A program made the translations under genes and the position numbers. A stretch of DNA of 26,606 nt from a virus, in the IMG/VR virus record IMGVR_UViG_3300020478_000053, positions 1 through 26,606 of that record; one strand, given 5' to 3'. A model generated the notes under the pieces. That model was not told the DNA's origin. It saw only the letters and a program-made list of their open reading frames with translations, and did no database searches. Below are positions 3,766 to 24,712 of this stretch, one piece after another; the stretch's first letter is position 1; every line of letters starts with the position of its first letter.

Positions 3766-3773
3766 TATTTATA
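3766..3773 (-). promoter_or_regulatory. T4-type late promoter TATAAATA
   Basis: A perfect T4 late -10 box, TATAAATA, reads on the minus strand 28 nt before the GTG start of the 524-aa fibre-like gene. It overlaps the TAA stop of the CpeT-like gene. The spacing matches the two CATAAATA boxes at 17859-17896, supporting function. Late transcription would use the gp55/gp33/clamp system; gp33 is encoded in this window. Confidence 0.75.
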
Positions 3774-4209
3774 ACTTCTTCTTGAAGAGAAAAAATCCTT
3801 CACTACCATGCCAGTAACCTTTGTCCCATGTATGATAGTAATCTGCATATAATTTTGCCTTACTTTCTAGTGATTTTCCTTTATATGTACATCCCTCCTC
3901 AGATATACCCTCGAAACACATGTTATCTTTATCAAAACCAAAGATCATATCACATGCAGGATTTTTTACTATGATGATACCCACATGATCACCAATAACA
4001 TGTGGTTGAGTTATTTCTACTTCCTGTTCTCTGTATGGTTTATCACTATAATTATAACGAGAACTAGTTAGAAACTTTCTCTCATCAACTCTTTCATGGG
4101 TAATATATATGTGTGCCCATTTAGTAGGATTAGATGATGCTTGTTCCCAATTATCAAACTTTCCTTCAAACCACTGACAAAATAGATTTAATTCCAACGG
4201 AGTGGGCAT
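3769..4209 (-). CDS. cpeT: CpeT/CpcT-like phycobiliprotein lyase (146 aa)
   Basis: Resembles the CpeT/CpcT family of chromophore lyases that attach bilins to phycobiliprotein cysteines. Visible family features are the N-terminal CQWFEGKFDNWEQA (usual form 'l..yl.G.fdN..qA'), W-hh-H followed by a beta-strand, YSDKPYREQEVEI (usual 'dqPYRqR...l'), and a C-terminal GCTYKGKSLESKAKLY and YWHGSEGFFLFKKK ('wG...GpyrF.k'). I chose the ATG complementary to 4207-4209 because AAGGAG sits 5 nt upstream; a longer frame starting at 4248 lacks such a site and would overlap the upstream gene by 61 nt rather than 22. CpeT homologues are known in other cyanophages. With pebS elsewhere in the window it points to manipulation of host bilin or antenna metabolism. 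Its late-promoter-bearing 3' end feeds the structural genes. Confidence 0.8.
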   Translation of the reverse strand: MPTPLELNLFCQWFEGKFDNWEQASSNPTKWAHIYITHERVDERKFLTSSRYNYSDKPYREQEVEITQPHVIGDHVGIIIVKNPACDMIFGFDKDNMCFEGISEEGCTYKGKSLESKAKLYADYYHTWDKGYWHGSEGFFLFKKKL

Positions 4210-4847
4210 TTGTTCTCCTTGTTCAATCTCTGCTTTATTATATCCCATGATTTGAATTTTGTGAATAGTCTTAGTGTATTATGTTGTTGTAATTGTGACG
4301 TTAGTTCCTTTGGTGGTTTACGTTGTTCCAGTTGTACCTGAGTTTTGCTTGGGAATCTTATATGACTCAGGGGAGTCCCTCTAGGTAACAATATATCATT
4401 GTCTATAAGCTTCATACCTATGACTATAGGACGAAACCATACAGATATAGGAAACGTACCTTGTACTAACTCAACACCTTGGCGGGCGAGCAGAGGAGGT
4501 GCCAGTTGTTCAACCCACACATTCTTTTCCTTTGTCCAGAAAAACCAGTTATACTTTAATTGTATCTCTGGATAGTCTCCATTTAACCATGTATCAGAAA
4601 CATGAAAATATTGATCATATGCCTTCTGTGGTATATTTGTATCAATCCTATCTTTATTAAATTTAATACCTAGATCAAATGGTTGTTCAATTACCCAAGT
4701 ATTCTTAAAATATTCCTTCCATGCAGGACATTTAGCATGATCATATTTCATATCATACCCAGACAAATATTTTTTGGGACCACCTACGAATTCATTTGGA
4801 AATGTATCTTCAGTATCACCAATAGTATATGACCAATAAATCTTCAC
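4188..4847 (-). CDS. Conserved-looking hypothetical protein (219 aa)
   Basis: Starts MKIYWSYTIGDTEDTFP with a TGA/ATG 4-nt overlap to the upstream 2OG oxygenase gene. The protein is aromatic-rich (many Trp, Tyr, Phe) with a central predicted beta region (YNWFFWTKEKNVWVEQLAPPLLA, read in part; FPISVWFRPIVIGMKLID) and ILLPRGTPLSHIRFPSKTQ, then a polar helical C-terminus (LTSQLQQHNTLRLFTKFKSWDIIKQRL). No catalytic motif that I can assign is visible. It sits between a 2OG oxygenase and a CpeT-like lyase in an accessory cassette, so an enzymatic or cofactor-related role is possible but unproven. No signal peptide or membrane segment is evident. Confidence 0.55.
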   Translation of the reverse strand: MKIYWSYTIGDTEDTFPNEFVGGPKKYLSGYDMKYDHAKCPAWKEYFKNTWVIEQPFDLGIKFNKDRIDTNIPQKAYDQYFHVSDTWLNGDYPEIQLKYNWFFWTKEKNVWVEQLAPPLLARQGVELVQGTFPISVWFRPIVIGMKLIDNDILLPRGTPLSHIRFPSKTQVQLEQRKPPKELTSQLQQHNTLRLFTKFKSWDIIKQRLNKENKCPLRWN

Positions 4848-5338
4848 CTTTCAAAATAATTTACATTCAGAACTATTCTCCTATCAGTGTCCTTTTGGGG
4901 AACACCTCTATGTTCAATATTAGTATCAAAAATGAGTGCGTTATTAGCTATAGTATATGATTTATTCTCTGGGAATGGACATTCACCAGAAAATTCAGTG
5001 TATCCATCACAATCATTTAGATAGAATACACACGTCTTACTTGGAGTACTTAATTTCCAATCAACATGCCAACCCTGTTTGGGTGCATTCCTAGGAGTTG
5101 AGTTCAATTTAATCCTAAGAATAGAAATGGCATTCAATTGAGTACAGAGTACTGCAAGTATACGTTTCATCTTTGGAGTTACATCCTCAGAGAACTCATG
5201 ATCGTAATATAACAAATTAGTATATTGTTCTGGTTCACCAGGTGATTGAGTATAATACCATGGAAAATTTTTATCCAGTACTAACCTCTGTAACTCATCG
5301 AATGTAGATGGTTTAAGAAATTTGTGAATTACGTTCAT
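4844..5338 (-). CDS. 2-oxoglutarate/Fe(II)-dependent oxygenase (164 aa)
   Basis: A compact double-stranded beta-helix oxygenase. The Fe(II) triad is visible as H91-x-D93 in KQGWHVDWK and a distal H143 in IEHRGVPQKD, followed about ten residues later by R153/R154 (TDRRIVLNVNYF), the expected 2-oxoglutarate carboxylate ligand. The pattern fits the small prolyl-4-hydroxylase-like oxygenases abundant in cyanophage genomes, whose substrates are mostly unknown. The start ATG (5336-5338) lies inside the end of the acyl carrier protein gene (26-nt overlap), and the 3' end overlaps the 219-aa gene by 4 nt, so translation is likely coupled through the block. Substrate could be a protein, lipid, nucleobase or small metabolite; nothing in the sequence decides. 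Confidence 0.75.
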   Translation of the reverse strand: MNVIHKFLKPSTFDELQRLVLDKNFPWYYTQSPGEPEQYTNLLYYDHEFSEDVTPKMKRILAVLCTQLNAISILRIKLNSTPRNAPKQGWHVDWKLSTPSKTCVFYLNDCDGYTEFSGECPFPENKSYTIANNALIFDTNIEHRGVPQKDTDRRIVLNVNYFER

Positions 5339-5804
5339 CTTCCTCTAATGCTTCATCAATTTCTTTATCAAGTTTTGCTTGCTTTTCTGCCCTTGCTTCA
5401 GTTGCTTCAGTAAATTGCTTTGCTTCAGTTAAAGGTGCACCAGGTGTTTTTGCTTTCTTGTACTTAGATACATTAATCTTTTTCTTCTTGCCTTTATTTG
5501 CCTTGGCTTTTTTAATAGTTTCAATAGCATCACCAACTGTTACTATTTCACCTGCCATTTCATCTGGAATTTCAACACCAAAGCACTCTTCTAAGAACAT
5601 GACAAGTTCTACCATGTCAAGACTGTCTAGCATTAGGTCATCACCTAACTTACTATCCCATGTCACATCGACACCTTCAGATCTCTCTTTACCAAGAGTT
5701 TCAAGTATTGCTAGCTTTGCAACCTTGAGCATAGTGACCTTAGTGATCCTCTTAGAATCCTTAAGGATCTGTTTTATTTCGCTATAAGTTTTGTTGTAAG
5801 ACAT
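5313..5804 (-). CDS. Acyl carrier protein with long basic/charged C-terminal tail (163 aa)
   Basis: Residues about 25-98 form a canonical acyl/peptidyl carrier domain: KLGDDLMLDSLDMVELVMFL carries the phosphopantetheine attachment serine (S61) in a D-S-L-D motif, followed by helix 3 (FGVEIPDEMAGEIVTVGDAIETI). Unlike ordinary ACPs (about 80 aa) it continues with a Lys-rich segment (residues 99-119, KANKGKKKKINVSKYKKAK) and an alternating Lys/Glu helix (125-163). The start ATG overlaps the TAA of the 57-aa gene by 1 nt. No phage acyl synthase or phosphopantetheinyl transferase is visible nearby, so it would rely on the host AcpS-type enzyme. Role unknown: it may redirect host acyl groups, supply a lipid- or acyl-modifying step, or act as a decoy. 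The neighbouring 2OG oxygenases are possible partners. Confidence 0.85.
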   Translation of the reverse strand: MSYNKTYSEIKQILKDSKRITKVTMLKVAKLAILETLGKERSEGVDVTWDSKLGDDLMLDSLDMVELVMFLEECFGVEIPDEMAGEIVTVGDAIETIKKAKANKGKKKKINVSKYKKAKTPGAPLTEAKQFTEATEARAEKQAKLDKEIDEALEEDERNSQIS

Positions 5805-12474: not shown

Positions 12475-13799
12475 GAAAACTGTGACATAGTAGTATATAA
12501 GTCAAGAAATGGTGACTCTTTAATTTTTGGAAAACCATCGCTTGATCCAATCTGCATTTCTTTTGCTAAAGTTTGCATATTACTTATCATTGGTGGTACT
12601 TCAATGGAAGATTTTCTATTCAACTCTGTTTTCTCTATTTTACTTAAACGAGTTTCATTAATAACATTATCTGTAAGTTCAGTCAAATTATTTACCACAG
12701 TATCAGTTACTGGTATTATGCTTGACTGATTCACTATACTGTTTGCAGAAGTAACAATTGAAGGTACTTCAGTGGAAAGATTGCTCATAATATTATTAAC
12801 AACCTTTATGGTATCATTATTGTTAGTATTATTAAAGCTAAGCATTTCCATATACTCAGCATTTCTTTGATGCCATTTTAATATATTACCTGGTACAGAT
12901 ATGTCATGGTCACCAGCATTAGGACGTTTACCTTCACGAGCTTTATCTGCCTCATTCAATATGTTAGTCCAATTAAATGGATTAAAGATATTCAATCTTT
13001 CAGACTTATTAGTTTGAGAGATTAATGTATCCCCAAGCATATTATTAATCAATTCCTGATTAGTAGAAGTAGTATCTGTATTTTGCTCATCAGTAGAATC
13101 ACTTTGAAAAGTATTCTTACTCAGGTTAAATGCATTTGTGATTTGAGATAAATTATCATTCAGAAATGTCTTTTGTGCTTCACTTGTCACAGGTAATGAT
13201 GATATCAAATCAGTTAAAAGAGCAGCAGCTGCTCTTACAGGAAGAGCCATAGCATCACCAAATGCATTCTTTAACTTATCAGATATTTTAAAATCATCCT
13301 CAAGTTTATTAGATACATTCCTCTCGAATGTATCATCAAGACCCATAGATTCGAGTGAAGAGACAGGAGATCCAGTAGTTATTCCTGAAAGAATTCCACC
13401 TCTGGCAAGATTTTTGGTTGGATTATTGGCATTTCCACTCTTATTGCCCCAGTTTCGGAAAGGGTTCCACCCCCTCCTATTGTTATTATTATTATTGTTA
13501 TTATTAGTTGGATTACTGGGTGTACTAGGGGTATTAAAATTCCTAACAATTGGTTTATTGACCTTATTAATTCCTAAATTGGGTAGTAAATTGTTAATAG
13601 GACTAAGATCTAGATTACCACCCTTCATTGGTTGTACATGTACTCCTCCAGTCCTACCCATATCCTGAAGTTTCTCTGCCATTAAAAAATCATCATGCTG
13701 GTCCTCAGCAAACATGAATTTCATTAATTTGTTACGATCATCAATAAGATCTTCAATCCCCACTATACTTTCGTGAAGATCTTCCATAGTTGGTATCAT
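12471..13799 (-). CDS. Structural/hub-associated hypothetical protein (442 aa)
   Basis: Lies between the 753-aa tape-measure-like gene (adjacent, no gap) and the gp27-like gene (4-nt overlap). The N-terminus is helical and acidic (MEDLHESIVGIEDLIDDRNK); residues 99-107 are nine consecutive asparagines encoded by an AAT/AAC microsatellite, followed by RRGWNPFRNWGNK. A motif ARGGILSGITTGSPVSSLES resembles the 'aSGGi...p' segments of tape-measure proteins, and an AAAALLTDLISSLPVT helix follows. The second half is Asn/Ser/Thr-rich. Position corresponds to T4 gp28/gp29-type hub genes, but no identity is convincing. It may be a second tape-measure/hub component. Confidence 0.5.
   Translation of the reverse strand: MIPTMEDLHESIVGIEDLIDDRNKLMKFMFAEDQHDDFLMAEKLQDMGRTGGVHVQPMKGGNLDLSPINNLLPNLGINKVNKPIVRNFNTPSTPSNPTNNNNNNNNNRRGWNPFRNWGNKSGNANNPTKNLARGGILSGITTGSPVSSLESMGLDDTFERNVSNKLEDDFKISDKLKNAFGDAMALPVRAAAALLTDLISSLPVTSEAQKTFLNDNLSQITNAFNLSKNTFQSDSTDEQNTDTTSTNQELINNMLGDTLISQTNKSERLNIFNPFNWTNILNEADKAREGKRPNAGDHDISVPGNILKWHQRNAEYMEMLSFNNTNNNDTIKVVNNIMSNLSTEVPSIVTSANSIVNQSSIIPVTDTVVNNLTELTDNVINETRLSKIEKTELNRKSSIEVPPMISNMQTLAKEMQIGSSDGFPKIKESPFLDLYTTMSQFS
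13479..13505 (-). repeat. Trinucleotide microsatellite (AAT/AAC)9 coding poly-Asn
   Basis: Nine in-frame asparagine codons (AAT and AAC mixed) lie in the 442-aa gene at residues 99-107. The repeat could change in length by slippage without breaking the frame. It marks a flexible linker before RRGWNPF. Confidence 0.85.
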
Positions 13800-16061
13800 T
13801 TATACCACCCCCTTAGTTAATGGATCAATGACCAAAGGCATTTTTACAATAACCTCTTCGACTTTATCAATAATAACAGGAAATGGAACCTCAATTGGTA
13901 CTGTTATTATTTGTGGTGGTAATATTGCCATATTACCATCGGTATCAACTTGTCTCACTGGTTCCTCAATAACCGACTGTTTATTAAAGTTAGTAGACGG
14001 TTGTATACTATTTAATAGTAAAGGATTGGTTGTCCATCCAGACTTTATCTTTTCATTAGTATCTCCACCAGTTCCATATGCTTCAAAGAACCTATTGTCA
14101 TGCTCACTACCTCTCCATGCCTCTTCATCTCTATCAAGAGGATGAAGTACTGATCCAGATCCTAAGAACTCAGTTCTTCCACCAACATGATCACGAGCAG
14201 ATTCTATTAATTGCTGGTTTTGTAATGCTAAAGCAGTAGAATCAAACAATGCTTCCATTTCTGCATAGGTATAAGTTACTCCTTTCTTAGACCAATAAGA
14301 AATCATAGCATTAATTGCTGATTCCTTATCTTTAATATTCAACCATGCATCAGATGTATTAGTACCTTCACCAGAAATTGCCGTAGGGTCTGTGAATGCT
14401 GGTTGATATTGTCCATCTGCTGTAATAATATCAAAGATTGAAGTACCATATAATTGATTTGGATCATTAAAACGATTATATATTGACTGTGCTACATCTA
14501 CTCTTGCTTGTTCATTACCAGCTTCTAAGGAAGATATAGCAACTAAGGCAAAGAAATCCTTAGAAGTAGTATCCATAGAAAAGCTATTAGTCTTATTTGT
14601 ATCCTCATTCTCAGTTTCTATATTAGTTTCTTCTTGTCTATCCTTTTTCCAAAAGAAAAATTTATCAAGTCCCTTAAGTAAATTTTTTGGTATCCAAGGT
14701 GCTTCTATTTGAACTCTCTCACTACCAACTATTTGTTCCAGTCTATTGGAAGCAATAAGTACAGAAGTAGCAGCAGGAGTATTTGTTTTTGATAAAAGAG
14801 CCTGAGTACTTCCAACTAGAATTGAAGCACCTTCTCTATAAACTGCTTCTATGGCATCACCCATTTTACTCATTGGTATAATAGCTTCAGCCTCATTTGC
14901 TTCACCAATAAATGCATTTAAACCCATAGCTGAAGCTCTAGTTGGACTGGTAATAACACCGCCGCTTGCAAGAGCTGTAGTGGCAGTTGCAAGAGATCCA
15001 GTATTATTACTGCTCACTAATAGCTCAGGTTTTACCCCAAGTTTCAACAGTTGAGTCTTAACATACTCGACAACTCCAGGACCAAAAATTATAAGTGATT
15101 TCCTAACCACTGCCCATGACATTGTACCTTTCTTTATCATATTGGCAATAGAAAGTATAGCACCTGCATCACCAAATGGAAGACCTGCATCAGCAAATGG
15201 GAGAGCAATAGTTCCTATTAATTGGACATAATCCCACCAAGTATAACCATTCTCTATCTCCACCTCAGGCCATGTTGATCTAATTTCTGCCAACTGTTCA
15301 GTATTTAAGTCATTGTTTATTGATAAAATCTCTGGTATATTCAATCCCTCAACAGATGTAATGGCACGTATTGCCATCGTATGATGCATACTACCACGTT
15401 CATATAAAGTTGCAGGTAGTCCAGCACTACCTATTCCATTCACCAGTTCAAATTCAATGCGTTTTACAAGTTCTGTACCACTCAAAAGTTGCCATGCAAC
15501 TGCAGGTTCTGGAACAAATCCACCCTCTTCTAATGTACCAGAGATCTCTTCATTAGTTTTTCTATTTTCTTGCTGTTTAAGTGCCTCTAGTAAAGCATCA
15601 TATTGTGCTTGTTGCTGAGTTACTAAATTTTCATTAGGATTAGGAAGACCAATAAGATCAGTTTGTTGATCTGGTATTATAACTTGCCCCTGTTCCTGAC
15701 CTTGGGGAATTGTTACCCTCTCTTGTACCTTTTCAGTTGCTGTTTGAGTTTCCTCGACAGTTATTGATTCTTCTACTCTTACTTCTTGTTCTTGGGGTTG
15801 TTGTTTTTGCTTACGTTTTGGCCATCTTCTCCACCAGGGAAGAGGTAAACCCATCCTCGGACGTTCCTCTTGCTGCTTTTTAATATTATTAATAATAGTG
15901 GGTGTTACTGATGCTTGCTTTAACCCAAGATAATATCTATTTCTATTTCTCAAATATTTAATATAATTTAACTCAGTAGTAAGGAAAGTATTCATAGACG
16001 CAGCAAGACTTTCACTAGACTCAACTAGATCCTCCATGTCAATTTCCTTTCCGTTAGCCAT
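13800..16061 (-). CDS. Tape-measure/hub protein with cell-wall hydrolase domain (753 aa)
   Basis: Three regions can be seen. Residues 1-190 are charged and Gln/Glu-rich with PLPWWRRWPKRKQ. Around residues 365-405 a segment LASGGVITSPTRASAMGLNA then EAEAIIPMSKMGDA matches the 'aSGGivt.pt....iGEag.EaiiPl' signature frequent in phage tape-measure proteins. Residues about 500-655 resemble SleB/hydrolase_2-type peptidoglycan hydrolases: FFALVAISSLEAGNEQARVD with the likely catalytic Glu, VAQSIYNRFN, IFDIITADGQYQPAF, and later HPLDRDEEAWRGSEHDNRFF. The C-terminus (about 690-753) is Ile/Val/Pro-rich. It directly follows the gp26/gp51-like pair, the place of a tape measure in many tail operons. A role in tail length or hub assembly and local wall digestion is inferred. 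T4 gp29 (590 aa) is the likely positional counterpart. Confidence 0.65.
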   Translation of the reverse strand: MANGKEIDMEDLVESSESLAASMNTFLTTELNYIKYLRNRNRYYLGLKQASVTPTIINNIKKQQEERPRMGLPLPWWRRWPKRKQKQQPQEQEVRVEESITVEETQTATEKVQERVTIPQGQEQGQVIIPDQQTDLIGLPNPNENLVTQQQAQYDALLEALKQQENRKTNEEISGTLEEGGFVPEPAVAWQLLSGTELVKRIEFELVNGIGSAGLPATLYERGSMHHTMAIRAITSVEGLNIPEILSINNDLNTEQLAEIRSTWPEVEIENGYTWWDYVQLIGTIALPFADAGLPFGDAGAILSIANMIKKGTMSWAVVRKSLIIFGPGVVEYVKTQLLKLGVKPELLVSSNNTGSLATATTALASGGVITSPTRASAMGLNAFIGEANEAEAIIPMSKMGDAIEAVYREGASILVGSTQALLSKTNTPAATSVLIASNRLEQIVGSERVQIEAPWIPKNLLKGLDKFFFWKKDRQEETNIETENEDTNKTNSFSMDTTSKDFFALVAISSLEAGNEQARVDVAQSIYNRFNDPNQLYGTSIFDIITADGQYQPAFTDPTAISGEGTNTSDAWLNIKDKESAINAMISYWSKKGVTYTYAEMEALFDSTALALQNQQLIESARDHVGGRTEFLGSGSVLHPLDRDEEAWRGSEHDNRFFEAYGTGGDTNEKIKSGWTTNPLLLNSIQPSTNFNKQSVIEEPVRQVDTDGNMAILPPQIITVPIEVPFPVIIDKVEEVIVKMPLVIDPLTKGVV

Positions 16062-16234
16062 TAGTTACGCTGAGATCGTCTACGTTCTTCTTCAATTCGC
16101 TCTCTTTCTTTTTGCAAATGAGTAGCTAGCATGTTAACATAAACATCCCGTTCCCACGGGATCATATTGTCAATATCACTCAAGCTATATTTATGATGCT
16201 GAACCAAGGCAAAATTTGTCTGGTAAAAGCTCAT
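16061..16234 (-). CDS. gp51-like small hub/tail-chaperone partner (57 aa), possibly made as -1 extension of gp26
   Basis: Encodes MSFYQTNFALVQHHKYSLSD, then MIPWERDVYVNMLATHLQKE and a charged ERERIEEERRRSQRN tail. The '..i..MiPWEr..yv.mL..hl..E' pattern is common to small proteins encoded just before tape-measure genes, and cyanophage annotations, as I recall them, place a small gp51 ('hub assembly catalyst') here. The ATG has a GAGG 5 nt upstream, but that sequence lies inside a perfect hairpin. The frame is also open upstream into the end of gp26 in the -1 register, so the product may be made as a 297-aa gp26-gp51 fusion. Its TAA overlaps the ATG of the 753-aa gene by 1 nt. The gp51 name is tentative. 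Confidence 0.7.
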   Translation of the reverse strand: MSFYQTNFALVQHHKYSLSDIDNMIPWERDVYVNMLATHLQKERERIEEERRRSQRN

Positions 16235-16237
16235 TAA

Positions 16238-16267
16238 GCCCTCATGAAAGAGGGCTATCCGAAAAAA
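16238..16267 (-). promoter_or_regulatory. Putative -1 programmed ribosomal frameshift signal (slippery T TTT TTC plus hairpin)
   Basis: On the minus strand the last codons of gp26 are GAT TTT TTC GGA TAG. The heptamer T TTT TTC (16267-16261) fits X XXY YYZ in the zero frame. After a 5-nt spacer (GGATA) comes a perfect 6-bp hairpin GCCCTC-TTTCAT-GAGGGC (16255-16238). The -1 frame continues CGG ATA GCC CTC TTT CAT GAG GGC TTA ATG with no stop straight into the 57-aa frame. All frameshift components are present with normal spacing; function is inferred. Confidence 0.65.
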
Positions 16268-16953
16268 TCTGCTAACCCCTGAATATTAATCTCATTATCA
16301 ACACCAGTCTTAGGGTTTTTAACCTTAAGCGTGTGTCTAAGAGAAGGCATTGTATTAAAAAACGTTTGTATATTTTCAAACTGACCTGTGGATAACGTGT
16401 CTACCCATTCTCTTGCTTCCTTGAAAGTAAATGTTCCACAGTCATCTTCTCCTTGATATACTCTATCAATACATTGAGCAACTAAATCATATGGGTCTGG
16501 AGTTTCCCCAGAAAAATTTATCTTAGCAAAATATTCTAAGTTGGGGTATTTCATAATAAGAGTTATATCATCAGTCAACTTAAATTTGTTAGTATGCCCC
16601 TTAGGGAAATGTACCTTGATGTCATCTACCATAAATTTAACATCAACTTCAGTCTCACCATCATCAGGACACTTCACTTTCAAACTAAGTTCCTCGCTGA
16701 CTGATCTAGCACGAATTTGAAGGAAAATGAATTCAATATCAAATAAAGCGAGATCTTCAATCTTAATTCTCGTTTGAATACAGTTTTTCAAATTCTGAGT
16801 AATGGCATCCATGATCGTTTCCTGATCTTGGGACTCCATTGCAACGATTAAAACTTTTTGTTCCTTTACTAAGAAAGGTCTGTATTTGATTTTCTTTTTT
16901 GTAGAAGGCACCGTCAGTGTATACACTGGCGTAACAAGTTCAGGTAATGGCAT
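16255..16953 (-). CDS. 26: Baseplate hub subunit gp26 / tail-assembly-chaperone-like protein (232 aa)
   Basis: Matches the T4 gp26 baseplate family (T4_baseplate, PF12322 type): LPELVTPVYTLTVPSTKKKI, KYRPFLVKEQKVLIVAMES, QNLKNCIQTRIKIEDLALFD, IEFIFLQIRARSVSEELSLKVKCP (in part), and the C-terminal HTLKVKNPKTG then INIQGLADFFG. T4 gp26 is 208 aa. The N-terminal 'v.s.kk..ykpflvkEek.ll.a.es.d' unit is very characteristic. The start is the ATG complementary to 16951-16953, 21 nt after a GATAAATA late-promoter-like box. The extreme 3' end carries a slippery heptamer that can fuse it to the gp51-like frame. Position just before the tape-measure-like gene suggests it serves as a tail-assembly chaperone as well as, or instead of, a hub structural protein. 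Confidence 0.8.
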   Translation of the reverse strand: MPLPELVTPVYTLTVPSTKKKIKYRPFLVKEQKVLIVAMESQDQETIMDAITQNLKNCIQTRIKIEDLALFDIEFIFLQIRARSVSEELSLKVKCPDDGETEVDVKFMVDDIKVHFPKGHTNKFKLTDDITLIMKYPNLEYFAKINFSGETPDPYDLVAQCIDRVYQGEDDCGTFTFKEAREWVDTLSTGQFENIQTFFNTMPSLRHTLKVKNPKTGVDNEINIQGLADFFG

Positions 16954-16988: not shown

Positions 16989-17861
16989 TTAGAAGAGTTT
17001 TCTACCTAAAGCGAAGAGACCTCCACCAACAATACCACGTCTAACCCACTTATTCCTTAATATCTTAGGAAGCTTAGATTTTTTTGTCTTAGAAGTATCT
17101 TCAGAATTTTCATTCTGTTTCTTAATATCAGTGCTAGTCTGATCTGGTGGGGTAGCACTAACTTTACTTAGTTCATACGTTAAATGACTGTATTCATAGT
17201 AAAATCCTACAGTTACTTTTACAAGTTGTGATGGACCTGCAGAATATGGTATTGATGATACAGTATATGGATATGCTTTAGCAATTCTAGCTGTATATCC
17301 AGTTCTATATCCCCCACTGGGACCAGCGGGACGATTGAATTTCTCTAATTTAGTTATCATTAAGTCAGCGACGTAATCATCATAATATCTTTGCACAAAT
17401 GCTTGTTGATTTTTCTCCATCACTTCATTACCAGGTTCATATATGGGCACTCCTTCTTCCGTAGGACCCCTATTCATAACAAAATCCTGCCAAGCTCTAA
17501 AGAACATCAATGCAGTTGATTCAGAATCCAAGAAAAAACTAACATCAAGTTCATTGTATACTTTATTACCTGCCATTTTCTGAGTGATACCTTTATATGG
17601 CATCTTTACATCACTACCAGAGTATGTTACACCTGGCAATTGTATCTCATTACACTCAAGTTGAAGTCTAGCTATATTTCTATCTACCGTTTTATCATTT
17701 TCACCTGAGTTAGTTTGGAGTTCATTACTAATCCATTTTTTCAGTGTTTCCTTCATCTGTATATCAAACTGATATAAATTAGACGCAGAAATACCTCCAG
17801 CCTGTTTTAATACATCCTGCTGGAATTCTAGTATGCCTCTTTTTGGTGTTTCAATTGCCAT
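16989..17861 (-). CDS. Baseplate tail-tube initiator, gp54-like (290 aa)
   Basis: Shows the tail-tube (gp19/gp54) pattern: ARLQLECNEIQLPGVTYSGS (strand then 'lPG.....d'), YKGITQKMAGNKVYNELDVS ('y...i.qkmaG...f..l.v.F'), FFLDSESTALMFFRAWQDFV ('fl.d.....y..f..W.d.v'), and a later beta segment RIAKAYPYTVSSIPYSAG, then LVKVTVGFYYEYSHLTYE. T4 gp54 is 320 aa. The C-terminal 60 residues are a Lys/Asn/Ser-rich linker ending in a Gly-rich hydrophobic tail (WVRRGIVGGGLFALGRKLF). gp54 caps the baseplate and nucleates tube polymerisation. It is the first gene of the leftward hub operon, preceded by a CATAAATA box. Alternative: another tube-like protein. Confidence 0.7.
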   Translation of the reverse strand: MAIETPKRGILEFQQDVLKQAGGISASNLYQFDIQMKETLKKWISNELQTNSGENDKTVDRNIARLQLECNEIQLPGVTYSGSDVKMPYKGITQKMAGNKVYNELDVSFFLDSESTALMFFRAWQDFVMNRGPTEEGVPIYEPGNEVMEKNQQAFVQRYYDDYVADLMITKLEKFNRPAGPSGGYRTGYTARIAKAYPYTVSSIPYSAGPSQLVKVTVGFYYEYSHLTYELSKVSATPPDQTSTDIKKQNENSEDTSKTKKSKLPKILRNKWVRRGIVGGGLFALGRKLF

Positions 17862-21893: not shown

Positions 21894-21925
21894 TATTTAT
21901 AGCACATTCTGAGGGGTCTTGTCAA
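21894..21925 (-). promoter_or_regulatory. Combined sigma-70 and T4-late promoter for gp32
   Basis: TTGACA (21925-21920) lies 18 nt before TGC-TATAAATA (box 21901-21894) on the minus strand. The -10 is at once an extended sigma-70 -10 (TGCTATAAA) and a perfect T4 late box TATAAATA. The TGA stop of purC is inside the TTGACA. Start of transcription near 21887 would give a leader of about 270 nt. Confidence 0.75.
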
Positions 21926-22683
21926 GTGAACTGACGTAGACCTGTTAGGATGTCCTTATATGCTGAGACCAATGCCTCATCTGATCCATACTTCCTAAAG
22001 ATATCCTTATCCTTGCTCATACCACTGTTTTTCTCCCACAGTCTCATGCTATCGGGACTGATTTCATCCCCAAGGTATAGATCACCATGAGCATCGTAAC
22101 CAAATTCCAACTTAAAGTCAACAAGATCAATACCCATAAGGGTGAATAAGGATTGTAGTTCAAGATTAACGTCCAGTGCTGTTTTCTTCATAGGTTCAGG
22201 ATCTACACCCATTAGTCTTACACGATCAAATGTAAGTAGTGGATCACCTTTAGAATCATCCTTAAGGAAATACTCTACGATAGGTGGTGTAATAAGTGTA
22301 CCTTCCTTCATTGTAGTATTCTTAACGATACTACCAGCAGCAATGTTCCTAACTATAACCTCAACAGGAACTATAGTTAGTTTCTTACATAACATTGTAT
22401 TAAGTGAAGGACAATCAATATAATGAGATCTAATACCACGCTTACCTAGATGCTCAAAGAGTAGTGATGATATTAGACAACATATCTTACCTTTCTCTGA
22501 AGGTTCAGATGTCTTTTTACCATCAAATGCAGTAACCTTATCATGATACTCAATCATGACCTTATCTGCTTCACCTCCTACTTCATAGACACTCTTAACC
22601 TTACCCACATTAATTGCAGGATGGTTTATAATGATTCTATGAAGTTTATCAGGATTGTTGTTCGGGTTCGCTTGTATCTCCAT
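21922..22683 (-). CDS. purC: Phosphoribosylaminoimidazole-succinocarboxamide synthase PurC (253 aa)
   Basis: Catalyses ATP-dependent joining of CAIR and aspartate to SAICAR in purine biosynthesis. Signature segments are present: GKVKSVYEV, DKVTAFDG, LTIVPVEVIVRNIAAGSIVK (the PurC 'vE.iVR..aaGS' signature), VDFKLEFGYDAHGDLYLGDE and ISPDSMRLW. Length is typical for the single-domain bacterial enzyme (about 240 aa). The ATG at 22683 lies within the end of pebS (35-nt overlap); no strong ribosome-binding site is seen, so coupling to pebS translation is likely. Cyanophages often carry purine-synthesis genes, and purN lies five genes away toward gp59. The TGA stop is embedded in the -35 of the gp32 promoter. 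Confidence 0.95.
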   Translation of the reverse strand: MEIQANPNNNPDKLHRIIINHPAINVGKVKSVYEVGGEADKVMIEYHDKVTAFDGKKTSEPSEKGKICCLISSLLFEHLGKRGIRSHYIDCPSLNTMLCKKLTIVPVEVIVRNIAAGSIVKNTTMKEGTLITPPIVEYFLKDDSKGDPLLTFDRVRLMGVDPEPMKKTALDVNLELQSLFTLMGIDLVDFKLEFGYDAHGDLYLGDEISPDSMRLWEKNSGMSKDKDIFRKYGSDEALVSAYKDILTGLRQFT

Positions 22684-23317
22684 ATTGAAATAAAAATCCT
22701 TTCACTAATTGTTCTGACTGTTCCTTACCAAACTTACCAGCAAGATAAGGACCAACTGGGTCTAACCTTGTCATATAGTTATCGAAGTCCCTATATGTTT
22801 CTGTGGCATTGAGACCATCAGGTGTTTCCCATTCTATCATATCCTTGTATTTCTGTAAATACTCCTTAAACATAGGTAGATGGTCATCCACCTCATCCAT
22901 CTTACAGTACCTTACAAAAATATTCTCTGAGAAGTGGTTACCCATCTCAAAGAACCTATAATCTTTCTCTGCTTTTGGTAAATCAGGTACAGACATCAAG
23001 TAGTGTTCTACTGGATGCTGGAAGTCAAATACTATAATAACTTTTCGTTCAGAGAATCCCATGAGATCCATGCCAAAGCAAGGGAGATTACCTGCCCATC
23101 CATTTGCGCCACACTTAGGATAAAGAATATTGTTATAGATGCAGGATTTTTCATCCCAGATATCGACTTCTCTTGATTTAATAAAATAATCATGTGTGTA
23201 TACTGTTGCTTTTAGACGAGTACCACCTTTACCTGTCCAGTCTGCCCAGATAGGTTGCTTTTGGAAATCAGGAAATGTTTCCCATAAAGCTTCTTTATAA
23301 TTTTTCCAGAGATCCAT
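22649..23317 (-). CDS. pebS: Phycoerythrobilin synthase PebS, ferredoxin-dependent bilin reductase (222 aa)
   Basis: Belongs to the HY2/ferredoxin-dependent bilin reductase family and resembles the phage-type PebS, which reduces biliverdin to phycoerythrobilin in two steps (hosts use PebA plus PebB). Visible: YNNILYPKCGANGWAGNLPC then FGMDLMGFSERKVIIVFDFQ, RFFEMGNHFSENIFVRYCK, and YRDFDNYMTRLDPVGPYLAG. The two catalytic aspartates of PebS (105 and 206 in the P-SSM2 enzyme, as I recall) correspond to D84 (FGMD) and D186 (RLDP). PcyA-type reductases differ around these sites, so PebS is preferred over PcyA or PebA/PebB. The start overlaps the 62-aa gene by 1 nt. It works with reduced ferredoxin in the infected cyanobacterium. 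Confidence 0.88.
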   Translation of the reverse strand: MDLWKNYKEALWETFPDFQKQPIWADWTGKGGTRLKATVYTHDYFIKSREVDIWDEKSCIYNNILYPKCGANGWAGNLPCFGMDLMGFSERKVIIVFDFQHPVEHYLMSVPDLPKAEKDYRFFEMGNHFSENIFVRYCKMDEVDDHLPMFKEYLQKYKDMIEWETPDGLNATETYRDFDNYMTRLDPVGPYLAGKFGKEQSEQLVKGFLFQYGDTSEPEQQS

Positions 23318-24082: not shown

Positions 24083-24712
24083 TTACGTTCGCACAACTTG
24101 TTCATCCAAATTCTTTCGTTGAGATCCACTGTCCCATCTGTAGATATCATCCTGCAACAGATATCCACTATTCGGTTTCTGTAATTCGTGCTTAACATAT
24201 TCGATTGCCAACGGTAAAATTGCGTACTCACGTCGCTGAATGGCTTTTGTAAGAGATTTAACATCATCATCTGGCATAATGGGAACTTTTGACTGGATGA
24301 TGATAGGACCACCATCTAATTCTTCGGTTACGTAGTGTACAGTGCATCCAGTGTATTCTTCACCAGCATCCATTGCTTGTTCTACGGCATGTAACCCCTT
24401 ATACTTAGGTAACAACGAGGGGTGAACGTTGATTATTCGGTTTGGAAACTCTTTTATGAGATGTTTTGAAACAATTCTCATCCATCCTGCCAATACTATG
24501 AGATCTACATTCCATGCTGTTAGCATTTTAACCATGGATATCTCATCCTTATGATCAATCCATGCATGGGGTATTCCCAGTTTCATTGCTCTCTTAGCAG
24601 CACCACATTTCTCTTTGTTGTGAATCATTACCACAACTTCATCATAATGGCATGTTCTAACTATATTTTCAAAGTTAGATCCACTACCTGAACAAAAAAC
24701 TGCTAATCTCAT
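24083..24712 (-). CDS. purN: Phosphoribosylglycinamide formyltransferase PurN (209 aa)
   Basis: Transfers a formyl group from 10-formyltetrahydrofolate to GAR, step three of purine biosynthesis. The N-terminal FCSGSGSNFENIV is the phosphate-binding loop. The catalytic set is visible in RIINVHPSLLPKYKGLHAVE (Asn, His) and GCTVHYVTEELDGGPIIIQS (the essential Asp in 'ElDgGpIi.q'). Length is the usual 200-215 aa. AAGAGG precedes the ATG by 5 nt and the gene follows the 107-aa hypothetical by 1 nt. Together with purC it boosts purine supply for genome replication; it is one of the host-like metabolic genes between gp59 and gp32. Confidence 0.95.
   Translation of the reverse strand: MRLAVFCSGSGSNFENIVRTCHYDEVVVMIHNKEKCGAAKRAMKLGIPHAWIDHKDEISMVKMLTAWNVDLIVLAGWMRIVSKHLIKEFPNRIINVHPSLLPKYKGLHAVEQAMDAGEEYTGCTVHYVTEELDGGPIIIQSKVPIMPDDDVKSLTKAIQRREYAILPLAIEYVKHELQKPNSGYLLQDDIYRWDSGSQRKNLDEQVVRT

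Follow-up and report, generated by a model that had tools for sequence, protein, structure and literature searches.

G/GT-type frameshifting is described in an excerpt of one account as widely conserved in long-tailed phages, with T4 named as an exception (PMC5009743). In phage lambda, according to the same excerpt, a short and a long product share their N-terminal part, the -1 slip occurs near the 3' end and the genes hold a characteristic tail-gene position; the locus described here would resemble lambda in these respects, with T TTT TTC as its heptamer, and the likeness is one of arrangement rather than of compared sequences. The chaperone of the Vandenendeviridae phage Adele, which belongs to another phage family, likewise has a conserved poly-T signal (the motif there is GTTTTT) and an uninterrupted -1 frame in the excerpted text of PMC12846349, and is likened to our locus by signal and frame alone. 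Closer still, Vladimirov, Gautam and Davidson identified the tail assembly chaperone genes of T4-like phages in 2022, going by the title of their paper, which is cited in passages from PRFect (PMC10885494) for T4-like phages that have a longer fusion gene in addition to a short one, and from PMC12846349 for poly-T slippery sequences in the TAC-N genes of T4-like phages. The preliminary description of our locus had put forward a -1 frameshift between gp26 and gp51 as new for T4-type phages; this novelty is not borne out, since the 2022 work precedes it and, in those passages, is credited with the poly-T sites, and the frameshift in T4-like phages had probably been noted before. Among the literature matches listed, mostly titles and abstract openings, we recognised no description of a gp26/gp51 frameshift in cyanophages, and no ribosome profiling of cyanomyovirus infection was found among the matches listed. 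An excerpt of a 2010 paper (PMC3037559) gives cyanophage gp51 as only about 20% of the length of non-cyanophage gp51 and records that cyanophage and marine vibriophage gp51 are without the first ~200 residues; that excerpt makes no mention of frameshifting.

The stretch of viral DNA that we analysed (the window; 26,606 nucleotides), from a T4-like marine cyanophage, contains both genes, and all features located in it below lie on the minus strand. The gene for gp26 (16255..16953; 232 aa), predicted to encode the short form of the chaperone (TAC-N), carries the PF12322 domain in a Pfam search (E 5e-64; 216.4 bits, against a curated cut-off of 24.5) and matches phrog_150 (E 3.3e-73). The gp51 frame (16061..16234; 57 aa from an ATG at 16234), putatively the C-terminal part of the long form (TAC-NC), matches phrog_634 of PHROGs (E 2.1e-24) and also positions 243-280 of phrog_150, the C-terminal end of gp26's own family. 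A -1 fusion of gp26 and the gp51 frame would be 297 aa long, with ADFFRIALFHEG as the predicted junction peptide in the window's phage; a missing junction peptide in virions would refute nothing, since neither lambda G/GT product is present in mature virions, according to the excerpt of PMC5009743. The preliminary description had set this pair between a tube-like and a tape-measure-like gene, and the first assignment holds (16989..17861, upstream of gp26; PF23849, E 5.8e-19; phrog_45). The second is weaker: the 753-aa gene in the tape-measure position downstream (13800..16061) matched no tape-measure profile in Pfam or PHROGs and only hydrolase/peptidase profiles (PF07486, E 0.0091, below the Pfam cut-off; phrog_23178, E 6.6e-8). 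A tape measure is named near the locus in the phiM12 and HTVC008M records. Elsewhere in the window, an Asn-rich run (about 13450-13550) lies in the 442-aa protein encoded next after the 753-aa gene, an acyl-carrier-like protein is encoded at 5313-5804 (PF00550, E 8e-7), matches to the CpeT family and to ferredoxin-dependent bilin reductase mark phycobilin-related genes at 3769-4248 and 22649-23317, and matches to SAICAR synthetase and formyl transferase mark purine synthesis-type genes at 21922-22683 and 24083-24712.

At its 3' end the gp26 gene reads GAT TTT TTC GGA TAG, so that a slippery heptamer, T TTT TTC (16261..16267; 16267-16261 in the reading direction), stands in the gp26 phase with the TAG stop (16255..16257) one codon past it. 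A spacer of 5 nt separates the heptamer from a likely stimulatory hairpin, GCCCTC-TTTCAT-GAGGGC (16238..16255; 6 bp with a 6-nt loop), to which the predicted fold, at -13.3 kcal/mol, adds one A-U pair. The -1 frame is open from the heptamer to the gp51 ATG through the linker RIALFHEGL (16235..16261), the first base of which is the last of the heptamer. Recomputation thus reproduced what had been described from the letters alone: the phase of the heptamer, the 5-nt spacer, the 6-bp hairpin, the open -1 frame and the 297-aa fusion. This signal exceeds chance, because an in-phase T TTT TT[CT] occurs only three times in 8259 codons (the 32 ORFs of the window taken as genes), the other two occurrences are gene-internal and followed by weaker folds (-6.2 and -2.4 kcal/mol), and synonymous shuffles that preserve the -1 frame fold less stably than the hairpin does (z -2.62, p 0.017).

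Relatives were gathered in two sets. In the first, the best 80 of 273 IMG/VR loci, 78 had a readable junction and TTTTTTC stood in phase in 78/78. To these were added relatives of pelagiphage HTVC008M, Pseudomonas phage pf16, KVP40 and Salmonella phage Marshall (gp26 scans of viral contigs yielded 2 relatives for the KVP40 query and 11 for HTVC008M), together with 24 annotated regions of named phages, picked for diversity from 802, 733 and 1339 matching records. Of the resulting 215 loci, the window included, 207 were usable (the window and 206 others); the eight left out were L089 (an internal stop in gp26), L214 (RB43 gp51) and six that run off their contigs (L046, L072, L096, L104, L107, L147). 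At least four phages are present twice among the 207 (L082/L088, L083/L098, L084/L178, L085/L182), a duplication that is removed in counts by cluster.

The preliminary description had proposed that the junction be aligned across relatives for a conserved heptamer, spacer and stem. So aligned, an in-phase T TTT TTN is found near the gp26 end in 185 of the 207 loci (window included), structure often follows about 5 nt later and, in half of 40 lineages, the hairpin surpasses synonymous shuffles in stability. The heptamer is TTTTTTC in 140 loci, TTTTTTT in 44 and TTTTTTG in one, and frame 0 continues for eight more codons before its stop in 29 of the 185 loci, against 0-2 in the others. Counted by clusters of gp26 identity, it is present in 80/86 at 90%, 40/43 at 70% and 21/23 at 50%. 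Under each gp26's own codon usage, the joint log10 P of the NNT-TTT pairs is -24 with 40 lineages treated as independent; the 40 cluster representatives are related, and this value is accordingly too small, as are the combined p values of the hairpin and anti-Shine-Dalgarno tests given below. Phe-Phe is preceded by one of several residues (D, S, N, T, G, A), whose codon has T as its last base throughout the heptamer-bearing lineages, this being also the criterion by which those lineages were picked; the three clusters that lack the heptamer are of the Ackermannviridae type. A constraint on Phe-Phe in the protein, which T4 gp26 has as EFF, may explain part of the conservation of the heptamer.

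Folds 3' of the heptamer were compared with shuffles that keep the -1 protein, giving a mean z of -1.84 and p<0.05 in 20 of 40 lineages (Fisher p 2e-18); in seven of the 40, p exceeded 0.5 (HTVC008M, Cronobacter S13, Aeromonas 65, Rhizobium RL38J1 and three others; L082, L097, L112, L113, L198, L199 and L210). The stems vary in sequence and size: L095, for instance, has one of 10 bp, and those of P-SSM2 (L212) and S-SSM7 (L205) reach 11-12 bp. Judged from these folds, the downstream structure is likely to be a stimulator of frameshifting. A dnaX-type stimulator, resembling a Shine-Dalgarno sequence and lying upstream, was considered and rejected: the 18 nt 5' of the heptamer do pair better with the anti-Shine-Dalgarno sequence than other gp26 windows do (mean -5.4 against -1.75), but not beyond synonymous shuffles (p<0.05 in 1/40, Fisher p 0.38), and since the better pairing follows from the E/K/R-G-L residues encoded there, no such stimulator is claimed.

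If gp51 were an independently expressed neighbour of gp26, one would expect its frame relative to that of gp26 to drift. In a three-frame search downstream of gp26 with a profile of the -1 tail (E 0.01), 205 of the 207 loci had the gp51 tail in the -1 frame and none had it in frame 0 or +1; in the two loci without a match, L066 and L111, the end of the contig truncates the sequence. Because the profile was built on 40 loci that carry the heptamer, the 22 that lack it form the more independent part of this test, and all 22 match it in the -1 frame (E 1.5e-5 to 6e-4). The -1 frame is open for at least 56 aa in 180/180 untruncated heptamer loci, with none of the -1-register stops between the genes that had been named beforehand as evidence against a frameshift. 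Over the opening 16 codons of the -1 frame, 102 of the 183 loci in which at least 16 are visible (L066 and L111, with 7 and 15, being set aside) have no ATG, GTG or TTG, and at 90% identity 37 of 80 clusters show the same absence in all their members. With no usual start codon after the heptamer, slippage is the simplest route to gp51 in these 102 loci, where gp51 could be initiated independently only from within the conserved domain or at a less common start codon.

In the window's own clade, P-HM2 included, an ATG stands at the tenth codon past the heptamer, with GAGGG just upstream in many members. We consider it improbable, though the most viable of the alternatives, that both routes operate in this clade, the frameshift giving the long form and the ATG some free gp51; the position of the ATG is fixed across the clade and mostly preceded by GAGGG, but its methionine may be a chance residue, the next relatives (L051-L071) having A, E or D at that position. 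Less probable still is a gp51 that is separate altogether, made from its own ATG at 16234 by termination and reinitiation, with the GAGGG of the hairpin's 3' arm helping and the hairpin gating the start. In the window the tenth-codon ATG and the Shine-Dalgarno-like GAGGG could indeed start gp51 alone, and gp51 is annotated as its own gene in public records. Such a gene is hard to reconcile with the start-less loci, in which heptamer, frame and often hairpin persist, with a tail found solely in the -1 frame, and with the linker that precedes the ATG. This linker changes like coding sequence, -1 third positions being favoured: changes fell 88/45/133 on -1 codon positions 1/2/3 over 62 of the 72 minimum-tree steps that connect 73 distinct linkers, and 71/41/111 when counted from nucleotide 7 on. 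RNA polymerase slippage on the T run, with mixed transcripts and no ribosomal slip giving the fusion, is the least credible alternative, since, for all that at least six T occur in 185 loci, the run is phased for tandem tRNA slippage (its fixed phase being partly explained by the Phe-Phe residues), structure often lies at about 5 nt, and six T make a short run for bacterial transcriptional slippage.

The 22 loci without the heptamer (L085, L180-L197, L208, L209, L215) form a single group of Ackermannviridae type, made up of Marshall and its 18 IMG/VR relatives, Vibrio YC, Klebsiella T751 and Dickeya DP23.1, and the four named phages among them are filed as Ackermannviridae. Here gp26 ends GAR ATT TTC ATT/ATC TAA (GAG GCT TTC ATG TAA in Vibrio YC), and an open, homologous -1 tail is kept after gp26 without the slippery heptamer. 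Acinetobacter SH-Ab 15599, also filed as Ackermannviridae, has T TTT TTT.

The T-even phages are organised differently. Genes 26 and 51 are divergent neighbours in T4, Aeromonas 31, KARL-1 and SFHK24, and no in-phase heptamer was found at the gp26 end in any of these four; T4 gp26 keeps E-F-F with the codons GAG TTC TTT, which are not slippery. T4 gp26 and T4 gp51 both match PF12322, and the -1 tail profile, in a set of 10 proteins, matches the C-termini of five of five T-even gp51 (E 1.1e-12 to 7.7e-6) and none of four T-even gp26 below 0.2. The T-evens thus have two separate divergent genes with PF12322 in both proteins and a gp51 C-terminus homologous to the window's -1 tail, whereas in the window only a short gp51 tail follows gp26, a locus unlike the two-gene arrangement. 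With a gp26 domain and a homologous tail, T-even gp51 is the hard-coded equivalent of the predicted frameshift product. We infer that frameshifting is ancestral and the T-even duplication later. The fuller scenario stands at even odds: a hairpin-assisted shift on T TTT TTC would be ancestral and often the sole route to gp51 in the T4-like phages other than the T-evens, the T-evens would have duplicated the gene, and Ackermannviridae of the Kuttervirus type would keep the -1 tail by means of a non-canonical signal. As a separate observation, phrog_1140, the family of gp28, gives a weak match to T4 gp26 (L086:5803-6429; E 9e-4), which hints at a possible distant kinship between gp28 (in T4 at L086:8349-8882) and the chaperone domain.

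An AlphaFold2 model of the window's gp26 (52 sequences, pLDDT 86, pTM 0.79) had as its best match among 697 aligned chains the HK97 tail assembly chaperone, 2ob9, over 84 of 107 residues at an rmsd of 4.2 and with a Z of 7.5, which lies under the tool's caution line of 8; the next entry had a Z of 4.8. A Foldseek search of the model against the PDB gave nothing under E 0.5, with 2ob9 at rank 17 (E 2.5), and the four matches of a gp26 profile to the sequences of solved structures (best E 0.16) included none that was meaningful. The 2ob9 match to the predicted model is supportive of a chaperone fold, not proof of it.

It appears to us, at roughly nine chances in ten, that gp26 and gp51 in these phages are one tail assembly chaperone gene read two ways by -1 frameshifting. 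The G/GT-like reading proposed in the preliminary description is supported in this by the conservation of heptamer, frame, linker and hairpin, by the missing starts and by the homology of the fusion to T4 gp51; as a lambda G/GT-type chaperone frameshift, i.e., one of a known kind, widespread and well conserved, the locus is strongly supported on the strength of its sequence comparisons. From the observed signals, conservation and homology we infer the occurrence of slippage, its efficiency and the chaperone function: most ribosomes would halt at the gp26 TAG and yield the short form, and a minority, paused by the hairpin, would slip one base back at the heptamer T TTT TTC, continue in the -1 frame and so produce the 297-aa long form, which carries the gp51 tail. 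If lambda G/GT is a guide, the tape measure would be coated by short copies in large number and by a few long ones, and tube subunits would be recruited by the tail domain.

The locus supplies a short putative recoding element that is easy to test. The gp51 annotated in P-HM2 (L081:3789-3881; 31 aa) starts about 90 nt past gp26, inside the conserved domain, and this start is likely a misannotation caused by the frameshift. On the frameshift reading, the annotations "baseplate hub assembly catalyst gp51" in such phages would need to be merged with gp26 into a single recoded gene, and the short gp51 of cyanophages would be explained as the -1 tail of a fusion, not a shrunken gene.
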